Source: Myxococcota bacterium
GTDB taxonomy: Bacteria; Myxococcota_A; UBA9160; UBA6930
Direction: 5' to 3'
Assembly: GCA_028277885.1 (NCBI GenBank)
Contig: JANQFK010000043.1
Location: 34,568 to 98,567, forward strand
Length of the DNA: 64,000 nucleotides
Within the stretch, counting starts at the first letter, position 1. Every line of letters begins with the position of its first letter. The notes under the pieces were generated by a model, which was not told where the DNA came from, made no database searches, and saw only the letters and a list, made by a program, of their open reading frames with translations. Of the stretch, positions 55,706 through 61,776 are shown in pieces. A program made the position numbers and the translations under genes.

Positions 55706-56626
55706 CTAGGCGCCGTCGGAATCCGTATCGGTCTCGGGCTGCAGGTACGTGACCCGGGCGGCGGGCACCCGGGCCCGCAGCCGCTCCTCGATCTCGTCGA
55801 TGGCGCGGCTGAGCTGCTCCACCGAGAGGCCGGGGTCGAGCTCGAGCTTGGCGCCCACCAGCAGCTCCTCGGGGCCGAGGTGCTGGGTGCGCAGGTGCAC
55901 GAGGCGCTCCACCGCCGGATGGGACTCGATGGCGGCCACGATGGCGGCGCGCTCCCCGGGCTGGGCCGCCTCACCGATCAGCAGGCTCTTCATCTCGACG
56001 GCCAGCACCACCGCGATGGCGCCGAGCAGCACCCCGATCGCGATGCTGCCGAGGGAGTCGTAGCGGGGGTCCCCGGTGAGCGCCGAGAGTCCCACCCCGA
56101 TGGCGGCGAGCAGCAGTCCCAGCAGCGCACCGGTGTCCTCGAGCAGCACCACCGGCAGCTCCGGGCTCTTGGCGTGGCGGATGAACTCCCACCACGAGGC
56201 GTCCCCCCGCACGCGATCGGCCTCGCGCCGCGCGTTCCACAGCGCGTAGCCCTCGAACACGGTCCCCACCGCGAGCACGCCCAGCGCCCAGCCCACGTGA
56301 TCGAGGGGCTCGGGGTGGCCGAGCTTCTCGATGCCCTCGTAGATGGCGAAGAGCGAGCCCAGGGTGAACAGCACCAGCGCCACCACGAACGCCCAGAAGT
56401 AGCGCTCGCGCCCGTAGCCGAAGGGGTGGACCGGCGTCGGGTCGCGCCGGGCGCGGCGGCCGCCCCAGAGCAGCAGTGCCTGGTTGCCCGTGTCCGCGAC
56501 GGAGTGGACCGCCTCGGCCCCCATGCTGGCGGCGCCCGTGAAGCTCCACGCGACGAACTTCGCCACCGCGATGCCGAAGTTCGCGAAGAGGGCCGCGAGA
56601 ACGGCGCGCCGACTGCCTTCCTGCAT
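55706..56626 (-). CDS. Cation diffusion facilitator family transporter
   Basis: AVLAALFANFGIAVAKFVAWSFTGAASMGAEAVHSVADTGNQALLLWG. Confidence 0.92.
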   Translation of the reverse strand: MQEGSRRAVLAALFANFGIAVAKFVAWSFTGAASMGAEAVHSVADTGNQALLLWGGRRARRDPTPVHPFGYGRERYFWAFVVALVLFTLGSLFAIYEGIEKLGHPEPLDHVGWALGVLAVGTVFEGYALWNARREADRVRGDASWWEFIRHAKSPELPVVLLEDTGALLGLLLAAIGVGLSALTGDPRYDSLGSIAIGVLLGAIAVVLAVEMKSLLIGEAAQPGERAAIVAAIESHPAVERLVHLRTQHLGPEELLVGAKLELDPGLSVEQLSRAIDEIEERLRARVPAARVTYLQPETDTDSDGA

Positions 56627-56674: not shown

Positions 56675-57880
56675 TCACAGGTCGAGGGCGAAGCCCGGCC
56701 CGGCGCCGAGCCCGGCGCCCCCGGTCCCGCTCCCGCCGCGGCACAGGGCCCGCAGCGACGCGTCGTCCACCTCGGGCACCCGGTCCGCCAGGGCCTGGAA
56801 GCGATGGAAGGCGCGCTCCAGGGCCTCCCCGCCGAGCTCGATGCCCAGCGCCGCCACCCGGGCCGCGAAGCCGGCCCGCCCGGAGAGCTTACCCAGCACG
56901 ATGCGCGTGCCCTCCGGGTGCCCGATGTGGGCCGGGTCGATCACCTCGTAGGTCTCCCGGTTCTTGAGCACGCCGTCTTGGTGCACGCCCGAGGCGTGGC
57001 GGAAGGCGTTGCGACCGACGATCGCCTTGTTGGGCGGCACCGCGATGCCGCTGCGCTCGGCCACCAGGCCCGAGAGGCCGTGGATGCCGCGGGCGTCGAC
57101 GCCGGTGTGGACGCCGAGCGCCTCGCCGTGGACGCGCAGTGCCATCACCACCTCCTCGAAGGAGGTGTTGCCGGCCCGCTCGCCGATCCCGTTCACCGCC
57201 ACCTCGACCTGGCGCCCGCCCGCCTCGACGGCGGCCAGCGCGTTGGCGGTGGCGAGGCCCAGGTCGTCCTGGCCGTGGAAGGAGAGCACCGCGCCCTCGA
57301 GCTCCGGGACCTGCGCGCGCAGGCCGGCGACCAGCGCCGCCACCTGGCCGGGGCGCGCGCAGCCCACGGTGTCGGGCACGTTCAGCGTGGACGCGCCGGC
57401 CGCGAGAGCGGCCCGGACCAGCTCGACGAGGAAGTCGGGGTCGGCCCGGGTGGCGTCCATGGGGCTGAACTCCACGTCCTCGGCGTGGCGCCGCGCGCGC
57501 TCCACCATGGCGGACGTCATCGCGACGACCTCGCGACGGCTGCGCCGCAGCTGGTGGGCGAGGTGCATGTCGCTGCTGTTCACGAAGACGTGGATGCGCG
57601 GGCGGGCCGCGCCGCCCAGGGCCTCGGCGGCGGCGTCCACGTCCGCCGCGACGGCCCGCGCCAGCGCGCAGACCGTGGTGTCGCGCACCGCGTCGGCGAC
57701 GCCGCGAACGGCCTCGAGCTCGCCCCGGGAGGCGCCGGGGAAGCCCGCCTCCACGGCGTCCACGCCGAGGGAGGCCAGGCGGGCGGCGATCTCGCGCTTG
57801 TCCCGCGGCGAGAAGCAGACCCCGGCGGTCTGCTCGCCGTCGCGCAGGGTGGTGTCGAAGATGCGGACTCGCTCGGACAT
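56675..57880 (-). CDS. leuA: 2-isopropylmalate synthase family (LeuA-type catalytic part, lacks C-terminal regulatory domain)
   Basis: VRIFDTTLRDGEQTAGVCFSPRDK...NGIGERAGNTSFEEVVMAL...PPNKAIVGRNAFRHASGVHQDGVLKNRETYEV; ends at 401 aa. Confidence 0.85.
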   Translation of the reverse strand: MSERVRIFDTTLRDGEQTAGVCFSPRDKREIAARLASLGVDAVEAGFPGASRGELEAVRGVADAVRDTTVCALARAVAADVDAAAEALGGAARPRIHVFVNSSDMHLAHQLRRSRREVVAMTSAMVERARRHAEDVEFSPMDATRADPDFLVELVRAALAAGASTLNVPDTVGCARPGQVAALVAGLRAQVPELEGAVLSFHGQDDLGLATANALAAVEAGGRQVEVAVNGIGERAGNTSFEEVVMALRVHGEALGVHTGVDARGIHGLSGLVAERSGIAVPPNKAIVGRNAFRHASGVHQDGVLKNRETYEVIDPAHIGHPEGTRIVLGKLSGRAGFAARVAALGIELGGEALERAFHRFQALADRVPEVDDASLRALCRGGSGTGGAGLGAGPGFALDL

Positions 57881-57936
57881 GGCTCGCTCCTGGCGGCCGC
57901 ACCGTCCGAGGGGAGCCCGGGTCCAGAGACACGAAA

Positions 57937-58018
57937 CCCCCTCCGGCCGGCGCGGCGGGAGAGGGTCGGTGACTGCGGACCTGGATCGGCTAGCGGCGCA
58001 GATCCCCCTCTCCCGCCG
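57937..58018 (-). promoter_or_regulatory. Candidate leucine attenuator: mutually exclusive antiterminator/terminator
   Basis: 13-bp perfect inverted repeat 58006-58018/57953-57965 (seg. 1:2); alternative 12-bp hairpin 57937-57965 (seg. 2:3, one mismatch, one G-U) followed by UUUCGU. Confidence 0.72.
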
Positions 58019-58070
58019 GGGTAAGCAGCAGGTCGAGAAGGCTCGTGAGACGCTGGCGCCGATCGCTCAT
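57990..58070 (-). CDS. Leucine-rich leader peptide (26 aa) upstream of leuA
   Basis: MSDRRQRLTSLLDLLLTPAGEGDLRR*, 7 Leu of 26, preceded by AGGA; not in the ORF track. Confidence 0.72.
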   Translation of the reverse strand: MSDRRQRLTSLLDLLLTPAGEGDLRR

Positions 58071-58127
58071 CGTTCCTGGGGGTACTCCACGCCCCCGGTG
58101 GCGTCAAGTCGGGTACCCTGGCCCCGC

Positions 58128-58529
58128 GTGTCACGGCCCCCCGAGCGCATCAACGTCGAAGGCCTGGGTCGCCTCCCGGTGTTCTCCCACGCGAGCCGGG
58201 CCGAGGGCTGGATCTTCGTCTCCGGCACCCTCGGGACCCGTCCCGGCGGCTTCGAGCTGGTCGAGGGGGGCGTGGGGCCCGAGACCGCCCAGACTCTGCG
58301 CAACCTCGAGCGCATCCTGGCCGCCGCGGGAGCCGGCTGGCGCGACGTCGTGAAGGTGAGCGTCTACGTCGCCGACATGGCGGGCTTCGGCGAGATGAAC
58401 CGCGCCTACGCGGAGTTCTTCCACGACCAGGACCCGCCGGCCCGGATCACCGTGGGCGGCGTCGCGCTGGCCCTGGGCGCCGCGGTGGAGATCGAGTGCG
58501 TGGCCTGGCGCCCCGAGCCCGGGGCGTGA
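58128..58529 (+). CDS. RidA/YjgF-family protein
   Basis: GTG start; SGTLGTRPGGFELVEGGVGPETAQTLRNLERILAAAGAGWRDVVKVSVYVADM...PPARITVGG. Confidence 0.87.
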   Translation: MSRPPERINVEGLGRLPVFSHASRAEGWIFVSGTLGTRPGGFELVEGGVGPETAQTLRNLERILAAAGAGWRDVVKVSVYVADMAGFGEMNRAYAEFFHDQDPPARITVGGVALALGAAVEIECVAWRPEPGA

Positions 58530-59335
58530 GCGACGCCATCCAGCGGGAGACCGGGCTCCTCGAGCACGACGGCGAGTCCCTCTACTGGGAGAGCCTCGGC
58601 GCGGGCCCGCCCCTGGTGCTCTGCCACGGGCTCGGCGGCAACCACGCGGTCTGGTACCAGCAGGTCCCGGTCTTCGCCGCGACCCGTCGCGTGATCGTCT
58701 GGGACCACCGCGGCTTCGGCCGCTCCACGGACCGCGCCCGCCGCTCGGGCCCCGAGGCCGCCGTCGGCGACCTCGCCGCGCTCCTCGACCACCTGGGCGT
58801 GGGCCGGGTGGACCTGGTGGGCCAGTCCATGGGAGGCTGGACCGCGCTGGGCTTCGCGCTGGGCGACGCCGGGCGCGTGGACCGCCTGGTGCTGGCCGAC
58901 AGCCTGGGCGGGCTCCACTCCCCCGGCATCGAGGCCGCCTTCGCGCGGGAGCGCGAGCGCGGCGGTCCGCCGCCGCTGGCGCCGGTGCCCGAGCTGGGCC
59001 GCCACGTCGCCATCGACCCGGCGCTCCTCGGGCGCGACCCCGCCCGGGCCTGGCTCTACCAGGCCCTCGGCGGGATGGGGAATCCCGATCTGCCGGGCGT
59101 GACGCCGCGGCTGCTCGCCAGCCGGCGCGCGGTGGGCGACGTGCAGGCCCTCGCGCACCCGCCGCTGCTCGTGGTCGGCGAGCGCGACCCGCTCTTCCCG
59201 CCGGCCGTCCTGCGCGCCGCGGCGGCCGAGCTGCCCGGCGCCCGGGTGGTGGAGATCCCGGGCTGCGGGCACTCCCCCTACTTCGAGGCGCCCGAGGCCT
59301 GGAACGCCGCGGTGGCGGCCTTCCTCGAGGCCTGA
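58526..59335 (+). CDS. Alpha/beta hydrolase
   Basis: GTGA overlap; LVLCHGLGGNHAVWYQQVPVFAATRRVIVWDHRGFGRS...LVGQSMGGWTAL...PGCGHSPYFEAP. Confidence 0.92.
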   Translation: MSDAIQRETGLLEHDGESLYWESLGAGPPLVLCHGLGGNHAVWYQQVPVFAATRRVIVWDHRGFGRSTDRARRSGPEAAVGDLAALLDHLGVGRVDLVGQSMGGWTALGFALGDAGRVDRLVLADSLGGLHSPGIEAAFARERERGGPPPLAPVPELGRHVAIDPALLGRDPARAWLYQALGGMGNPDLPGVTPRLLASRRAVGDVQALAHPPLLVVGERDPLFPPAVLRAAAAELPGARVVEIPGCGHSPYFEAPEAWNAAVAAFLEA

Positions 59336-59364
59336 GCCCGGCGTCACGCGCGGGACGGGCGGGC

Positions 59365-61776
59365 TCAGCCCACCTCCACCAGCGCGAGCCGGTCGCCCCA
59401 GCGCGCCTCCACGGCCCGGGCCAGGGCCGGGGAGCGCCGCAGCCCGGGGTCGCGGCGCACGGTCCCGAGAGCGGCCTCCCGGGCCACGGAGACGAGGCGG
59501 GCGTCGCGGATCAGGTCGGCCATGCGCAGGTCCGGGAGCCGGCCGTGCTGGCGCGTGCCGAGGAACTCGCCGGGCCCGCGGATGCGCAGGTCGGCGTCGG
59601 CGATCCGGAAGCCGTCGGTGGTCTCGAGCATGGCGCGCAGGCGGGCCTCGCTGTCCTCGGTGGAGGAGCGGGCCACGAGCAGGCAGGTGCCCGGCGCGTC
59701 GCCGCGCCCCACCCGGCCGCGCAGCTGGTGGAGCTGGGCCAGGCCGAAGCGCTCGGCGTGGTCCACCACCATCAGGCTGGCGCGGGGCACGTCCACGCCG
59801 ACCTCGATCACCGTGGTCGAGACCAGCAGCCGGGTCTCGCCCGCCTCGAAGCGCGCCATGGCGGCGGCGCGGTCCGCCGCCGAGAGCCGCCCGTGGACCA
59901 GGTCGACGCCCACCTCGGGGAAGGCGGCGCGGATGCGCTCGGCCTGCTCGGTGGCGGCGCGCAGGTCGAGCTTCTCGCTCTCCTCCACCAGCGGGTAGAC
60001 GACGTAGACCTGCTCGCCGCGCTCGAGGGTGGCCCGGATCCACTCCATCACCCGCGCCCCCTCCCCGGGCCGCAGCACGTCGGTCACCACGGGCTCGCGG
60101 CCCGGCGGCAGCTCGTCGATCACCGAGAGGTCGAGGTCGCCGTAGAGGGTGAGGGCCAGGGTGCGCGGGATCGGCGTCGCGGTCATGACGAGGGTGTGGG
60201 GCGAGACGCCGCCGCGGGTCTTCCCCGAGAGCGCCTTGCGCTGGAGCACGCCGAAGCGGTGCTGCTCGTCCACGATCGCCAGGGCGAGACGCGCGAACGC
60301 GACGTCCTGCTGCACCAGGGCGTGGGTGCCCACCACGAGGTCCACCTCCCCCGCCGCGAGCCCGGCCCGCACGCCGTCGCTCTCGGTGCGCGGCATGGAG
60401 GCGGTGAGCCGGGCCACCCGCACGCCCGGCTTCGCCGCGGCGGCGAGCTTGCGCAGCGTCCGCTCGTGCTGCTCGGCGAGCAGCTCCGTGGGCGCCATCA
60501 GCGCGGTCTGGTGGCGGTTCGCCGCCACCGCGACGGCGGCGAGGAACGCCACCGCGGTCTTGCCGCTGCCCACGTCCCCCTGGAGCAGGCGGTTCATGGG
60601 GTGGGGCCGCGCGAGGTCCGCGCGGATCTCCGACCAGGCGCGCTCCTGGGCCGCGGTGAGGCGGAAGGGCAGCGCGTCCGGGGCGGAGACGACGCCCGCG
60701 CGCTCCACGTCGAGGGCGATGCCCGGCTCCGCGGCGCGCGCCGCGTGACGCAGCGCGAGCCCGGTCTCGAGCAGGTAGAGCTCCTCGAGGACGAGCCGCT
60801 CGTGGGCGCGGGTGGCGTGGCCGCGCAGGGCCTCGACGTCCTCGAGCGGTCCGTCGGGCGAGAGCGCGTGGATCGTGCGCAGCGCGTCCGGAACGCTCGG
60901 CAGGCCGCGCTCCGCCACCAGGCGCGGCGGCAGGTGGCCCTCCACGAGGTCGGCGGCGCGCGCCACCGCGGTGGCGACGGCGCGGCGCAGGGTCCGCGGC
61001 GGGAAGCCCTCCGGCGCCGCGTAGTCGGGCACCACGGCGGGGCCCCGGGCGGCCTCGGCGCCCTCGGCCAGGATCTCGACCTCGGGGTGGATCAGCTCCT
61101 TGGCGAAGCGGTAGCGGCGCACGTCGCCGGTGGCGAGGAGCCGCACGCCCTTGCGCAGCCGGCCGTGGAGCGCCTCGGCGCCCCGGAACCACTTGAGGTT
61201 CACGGTGCCGGTGTCGTCCCCGAGCACGACCTGGAAGGTGCGCCGGCCGCGGCCCCGGAAGGCCCGCGGCATCGACCAGTCCGCCACGCGCACCTCGCCG
61301 GCGAAGGTGGCGCGCCGGCCCACCTCGAGCTCCCCGATCGTCGTGAGGCGGCGCCGGTCGTCGTAGCGCACCGGCAGGTGGAAGAGCAGGTCGAGCACGC
61401 TCCCGAGGCCCCGCCGGGCGAGGCTCTCGGCGCGCTTGGGCCCGACCCCAGGCAGCTCCGCCACCGGCGCGGCCAGCGCGGCCTCGGCGGCGCCGGGGCG
61501 CGTCAGGGGCTCGGTGCCGGCGAGGGCGCGCTCCACGGCGGCGCGGCGGTCCTCGGCGGCGAGCGGCTTGGCGAAGAGCTTGGCCACGCCGGCGAACACG
61601 CGTTGCCACTCGGGGGGAATGGCGAGCCCCCGCGCCCGCTCCGCCGCCGCCGCCACCGTGGCCTCGAGCTCGTGGACGCGGTCGGCCTTGGAGAAGTCGG
61701 CGGCGGCGAACTCGAGGGGGCCGCGGACCGCGGCCAGGGCCGCCGCGAAGGGACTCTCTTCCCGCGAGACCGCCAT
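59365..61776 (-). CDS. recG: ATP-dependent DNA helicase RecG
   Basis: LLQGDVGSGKTAVAFLAA...VDEQHRFGVLQR...VSTTVIEVGVDVPRASLMVVDHAERFGLAQLHQLRGRVGRG. Confidence 0.95.
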   Translation of the reverse strand: MAVSREESPFAAALAAVRGPLEFAAADFSKADRVHELEATVAAAAERARGLAIPPEWQRVFAGVAKLFAKPLAAEDRRAAVERALAGTEPLTRPGAAEAALAAPVAELPGVGPKRAESLARRGLGSVLDLLFHLPVRYDDRRRLTTIGELEVGRRATFAGEVRVADWSMPRAFRGRGRRTFQVVLGDDTGTVNLKWFRGAEALHGRLRKGVRLLATGDVRRYRFAKELIHPEVEILAEGAEAARGPAVVPDYAAPEGFPPRTLRRAVATAVARAADLVEGHLPPRLVAERGLPSVPDALRTIHALSPDGPLEDVEALRGHATRAHERLVLEELYLLETGLALRHAARAAEPGIALDVERAGVVSAPDALPFRLTAAQERAWSEIRADLARPHPMNRLLQGDVGSGKTAVAFLAAVAVAANRHQTALMAPTELLAEQHERTLRKLAAAAKPGVRVARLTASMPRTESDGVRAGLAAGEVDLVVGTHALVQQDVAFARLALAIVDEQHRFGVLQRKALSGKTRGGVSPHTLVMTATPIPRTLALTLYGDLDLSVIDELPPGREPVVTDVLRPGEGARVMEWIRATLERGEQVYVVYPLVEESEKLDLRAATEQAERIRAAFPEVGVDLVHGRLSAADRAAAMARFEAGETRLLVSTTVIEVGVDVPRASLMVVDHAERFGLAQLHQLRGRVGRGDAPGTCLLVARSSTEDSEARLRAMLETTDGFRIADADLRIRGPGEFLGTRQHGRLPDLRMADLIRDARLVSVAREAALGTVRRDPGLRRSPALARAVEARWGDRLALVEVG

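Follow-up and report, generated by a model that had tools for sequence, protein, structure and literature searches.

Organisation of the region upstream of leuA

The window, that is, the whole 64,000-nucleotide stretch of Myxococcota DNA analysed here, carries on its minus strand a gene for a short LeuA protein, preceded by a small leucine-rich ORF, several complementary segments and a predicted promoter. The features of this region are as follows:

58079–58107, minus strand: predicted sigma70-type promoter (-35 TTGACG at 58107–58102, 17-nt spacer, -10 TACCCC at 58084–58079)
57990–58070, minus strand: leader peptide ORF MSDRRQRLTSLLDLLLTPAGEGDLRR*, predicted leaderless, with a 5' UTR of about 2 nt
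58023–58040, minus strand: regulatory codons CTT CTC (GAC) CTG CTG CTT, the last CTT being nearly invariant in the family
58026–58032, minus strand: segment A (CCTGCTG, Leu codons), which pairs with 58018–58012 (CGGCGGG) to form the protector hairpin
58006–58018, minus strand: segment B, CGGCGGGAGAGGG, within the leader ORF (segment 1 of the original prediction)
57953–57965, minus strand: segment C, CCCTCTCCCGCCG, partner of B (antiterminator) or of D (terminator)
57937–57948, minus strand: segment D, GGCCGGAGGGGG, 3' arm of the terminator hairpin
57931–57936, minus strand: short, weak U-tract UUUCGU after the terminator hairpin
56675–57880, minus strand: short isopropylmalate-synthase-like LeuA, 401 aa (NCBIfam, Pfam, alignment A1)

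The 401-aa protein contains the PF00682 and PF22617 domains, and Pfam did not detect the allosteric domain LeuA_dimer (PF08502) in it. Its best NCBIfam isopropylmalate synthase equivalog score (512 bits) falls below the cut-off of 532, and a search of named genomes returned canonical LeuA only, at up to 56% identity. The catalytic family is clear, and we describe the protein as isopropylmalate-synthase-like, with a substrate presumed from its sequence. The same genome encodes a second, full-length LeuA with LeuA_dimer (G000:C20, L244 6922–8547) in a row of housekeeping genes (dxr, ilvC, psd, pssA, leuB, asd and truA), so that the leuA of the window represents an additional gene, one whose product has no allosteric domain. 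A cation diffusion facilitator gene (window 55706–56626) lies about 48 nt downstream of leuA in the same orientation, an arrangement also present in G010; this gene is possibly co-transcribed with leuA and so under leucine control.

The leader ORF had been proposed from the window sequence alone, and re-reading located it as described, at 58070–57990 on the minus strand. Leucine accounts for 25% of the leader residues vs 11% in the window genes. Among the 80 genomes of the order, 24 encode an orthologous short LeuA, and the DNA upstream of it was readable at 22 loci, the window itself included; the unreadable loci comprise one that is N-masked and one on a contig ending inside the element, with the terminator still visible. 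In G011, the element lies upstream of a short LeuA gene whose two parts are on different contigs. Conservation of the leader and of the complementary arms, suggested originally as a check, holds at all 22 readable loci. In each of them the leader closes with a Leu run that two variable codons separate from GCG GGx, corresponding to the consensus …LLL-x-x-AGEG…; the complementary arm comes next, and then the terminator. Of the 66 codons at the last three Leu positions, 65 encode leucine, and the variation among these 65 is confined to the third base, which is the mark of a translated frame. Together with 44 further leaders, the 22 loci point to a translated leader carrying a run of codons for the pathway amino acid.

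In 62 of 66 leaders, the Leu run closes with CTT (22/22 in the short-LeuA set and 40/44 in the second set). Based on six window genes and on the leuA genes of 12 relatives, this codon is rare, representing 2 of 321 Leu codons (0.6%) in the former and 2.4% in the latter. A rare CTT at the decisive position (58023–58025) would sharpen stalling of the ribosome; instead of codon sensing, a constraint imposed by the hairpin loop may account for the fixed codon.

The predicted transcription start lies at approximately 58072, just upstream of the leader, and not downstream of 57937, where a leuA start had been named as incompatible with the original prediction. In all 18 loci evaluated, TTGAC occurs 35–39 nt upstream of the start codon of the leader, and these 18 copies constitute most of the 21 TTGAC present in 8744 nt of upstream DNA. 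In the second set, TTGA was identified at 33–41 nt in 43 of 44 leaders, the start codon having been chosen partly by this spacing. TTGAC-N17-TA at 35–39 nt places the start 0–4 nt upstream of the start codon, and the leader mRNA is accordingly predicted to be leaderless, with a predicted promoter at a fixed distance upstream of the ORF.

Alternative helices and distribution of the element

The two 13-bp arms of the original prediction were confirmed, as CGGCGGGAGAGGG is the exact reverse complement of CCCTCTCCCGCCG, and GGCCGGAGGGGG (57948–57937) directly precedes TTTCGT, where it had been placed. The proposed three-segment layout stood with respect to the arms and the hairpin; the number of segments was revised to four, since pairing between A and B is also present. 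This additional pairing completes the canonical protector/antiterminator/terminator design.

The observed pairing energy of segment B with the downstream sequence was reached in 0.15% of shuffles of the latter. As a single sequence, the window element folds no better than shuffles (z -0.86), and the case consequently had to rest on comparison. The protector hairpin occurs in the MFE fold of the window sequence together with the terminator. A:B pairing was found in nearly all relatives and follows sequence changes, the hairpins of relatives including CUGCU/AGCAG, CCUUC/GAAGG and GCUUGC/GCAAGC. When native A:B combinations were compared with swapped ones, none of 5000 permutations was as good for the 22 short-LeuA loci, and the fraction was 0.0002 for 36 mostly long-LeuA loci; these permutation tests are inflated by the relatedness of the sequences, and the two A:B sets nevertheless agree. 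The comparison thus supports a predicted protector hairpin that holds the regulatory codons.

The C:D helix is 98.4% paired over the 22 sequences, with double-sided changes at three pairs and a permutation fraction of 0.0006 for native vs permuted combinations. The corresponding fraction for B:C was 0.14; this antiterminator is nearly invariant, and is therefore conserved but beyond the reach of a covariation test. In every sequence segment C is common to B:C and C:D, which makes the antiterminator and the terminator mutually exclusive. Judged as an intrinsic terminator, the element combines a strong hairpin with a weak UUUCGU tract, and a simple terminator scan flagged no terminator at the element because this tract is too weak. 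Several relatives (L007, L015 and L017) carry U-runs of 5–6 after the hairpin.

A covariance model built from the short-LeuA loci identified the element in 68 of the 80 genomes of the order. In the window genome it returned one element, plus a weak match to the antisense strand of that locus; such opposite-strand matches arise because the terminator is near-palindromic, and were ignored. The model found no Leu attenuator before the full-length leuA on C20 of this genome. Beyond the order, a sister family within the class and one family farther away in the phylum carry the element together with a LeuA gene and a Leu leader. Two matches in distant families of the phylum (L203 and L204) have no Leu leader and were taken as chance. 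At three loci of one genus in family f4 (L192, L195 and L196), the terminator precedes a long LeuA and our script found no Leu leader ORF, the leader being possibly lost or shifted. Six further loci of this family (L218, L219, L221, L222, L223 and L225) contain conserved GAACCCCTCCCGCC..GGCCGGAGGGGTTCTC hairpins that do not precede LeuA. Rfam gave no matches at the gathering threshold in the window, and its matches for the element were to unrelated families only, at chance level (E up to 5), with no riboswitch among them.

Proposed switch and rival explanations

The leader, its codons, the promoter spacing and the three helices are seen by sequence comparison, and on this basis the element is very probably a transcription attenuator of the ribosome-mediated kind, sensing charged leucyl-tRNA and controlling an enzyme of the leucine pathway. 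Ribosome-mediated attenuation by leucine, as originally proposed, is upheld by the conserved leader frame, Leu run, arm pairings and promoter, and only its compact three-segment design was abandoned. From this arrangement we infer stalling, actual termination and a response to leucine.

According to the proposed mechanism, transcription would start 0–4 nt 5' of the leader start codon and ribosomes would load on the leaderless end. With plentiful Leu-tRNA, the ribosome would pass the Leu codons and cover segment B during synthesis of C and D; the C:D terminator would then form and transcription would stop. If no ribosome is present, the Leu-codon segment A would pair with B, and C:D would again form. 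When Leu-tRNA is scarce, the ribosome would stall within the Leu codons, the rare CTT probably being the strongest stalling site, and would hide segment A; B would then be free to pair with the emerging C, leaving D single-stranded and allowing RNA polymerase to read into leuA.

Folding calculations are consistent with these steps. When folding is computed before synthesis of segment D, B:C forms in 22/22 sequences when the ribosome is stalled at the second- or third-last Leu codon, in 19/22 when it is stalled at the last one and in 0/22 when it is located at the stop codon. The free full-length RNA forms the C:D terminator in 22/22. In full-length equilibrium folds with the stalled ribosome masked, the terminator still wins in at least 15 of 22 sequences; equilibrium folding of this kind is unsuited to testing a kinetic switch, and folding of the RNA as it stands before D has been transcribed was used in its place. 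This outcome implies that the switch would have to rely on co-transcriptional kinetics, and co-transcriptional action is usual for attenuators. Because the encoded enzyme has no allosteric domain, the switch may be the main leucine control of short LeuA.

Leader translation could instead govern Rho-dependent termination or translation of leuA, with C:D mainly stabilising the RNA 3' end or gating Rho. The weak U-tract and the negative terminator scan would agree with such a role, as would the several actinobacterial leuA leaders that have no typical terminators (PMC8079986; PMC1262725). However, covariation extends along the whole of C:D, whose formation competes exactly with that of the conserved antiterminator, and several relatives carry U-runs of 5–6, so we regard this explanation as unlikely. 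A leader that binds a protein or a ligand, in the manner of the LEU element or of a riboswitch, with an incidental leader peptide, appears less likely still. Its precedent is the actinobacterial LEU element, which has a Leu leader and is thought not to act by classical attenuation (PMC1262725); against it, the leader frame, the Leu identity and the leaderless start are kept with synonymous changes, conservation is centred on the codons and the competing arms, and Rfam detected no riboswitch.

It could also be argued that a Leu-rich ORF lies by chance next to an ordinary constitutive terminator, given the unremarkable fold of the window sequence and the ease with which complementary arms arise in a G+C-rich genome. 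Maintenance of the element in most genomes of the order speaks against this, as does the search for the motif as a general terminator of the window genome, which gave 2 matches at the 3-mismatch limit vs 3 in the control, and we give coincidence almost no credence. Ribosome-mediated attenuation thus remains our preferred reading.

Possible enzyme exchange, Trp-codon leaders and known attenuators

In genomes without short LeuA, which include members of other families of the order, the gene downstream of the element encodes a long type-I LeuA (leuA_yeast/PRK03739, with LeuA_dimer), as read at 41 loci. The long and short proteins share about 28–30% identity and are non-orthologous, and none of the genomes read combines both arrangements. 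The order carB-recG-(element)-short leuA is found in G010 (L205), G068 (L209) and the window (56675–61776), where two genes lie between recG and the element; in G067 (L210) the slot reads recG-element-long leuA. The occurrence of long and short LeuA in one recG slot is consistent with an enzyme gene having been replaced while the attenuator stayed in place; losses from a LeuA pair once arranged in tandem may also have left this pattern.

Some model matches precede MFS transporters, and their leaders carry Trp codons (e.g., MLARFEWTWLVVLASKPEVGVGSLGR) with similar arms; the start is predicted to be leaderless in several of them. One such element is located in the window genome (G000:C33:94347–94461, L238), and further attenuator-like leaders with Trp codons were identified at L186, L188, L194, L201 and L179. 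The MFS transporters that follow are candidate Trp-regulated transporters, and these leaders may be a sister form of the Leu element, with a putative common descent. We tentatively propose, with somewhat less than even confidence, a portable family of leaderless Leu attenuators beneath which the enzyme was exchanged, once in the recG slot, with a Trp-codon sister before MFS transporters.

The element adds to an uncultured lineage a well-supported attenuator family that is absent from Rfam, and it pairs an isopropylmalate synthase without a feedback-inhibition domain with a predicted transcriptional leucine switch. It may also offer a natural experiment in which the regulator stayed and the regulated enzyme changed, while the last regulatory codon remained fixed as the rare CTT. 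The kind of control is classic; our literature search for this lineage found no description of it, and this attenuator family, spanning a whole uncultured bacterial order, seems undescribed.

The attenuators of the enterobacterial leu and trp operons are ribosome-mediated and are represented in Rfam by Leu_leader (RF00512) and Trp_leader (RF00513). The element resembles them in its leader with regulatory codons, its protector, antiterminator and terminator helices and the predicted coupling of stalling to readthrough. Unlike them, it has no Rfam sequence match, a predicted leaderless start and CTT as a conserved last regulatory codon, and it is predicted to control a single short or long isopropylmalate synthase gene rather than leuABCD. 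Streptomyces leuL leaders (MRFGLLLLSCRGEGL for leuA and MRAVRLLLSEPR for leuS) are leaderless leader peptides (PMC8079986), and the element shares with them leaderless transcription (here predicted), the Leu run and a similar LLL..GEG ending. The Streptomyces leuA leader was reported to be without a typical Rho-independent terminator (PMC8079986), whereas the element has a covarying terminator and an antiterminator. The actinobacterial LEU element, also located upstream of leuA and containing a Leu-rich leader ORF, is a pseudoknot whose base stem pairs the Leu codons with the leuA Shine-Dalgarno sequence (PMC1262725); here, the predicted partner of the Leu codons is segment B next to them, and a conserved terminator is present.
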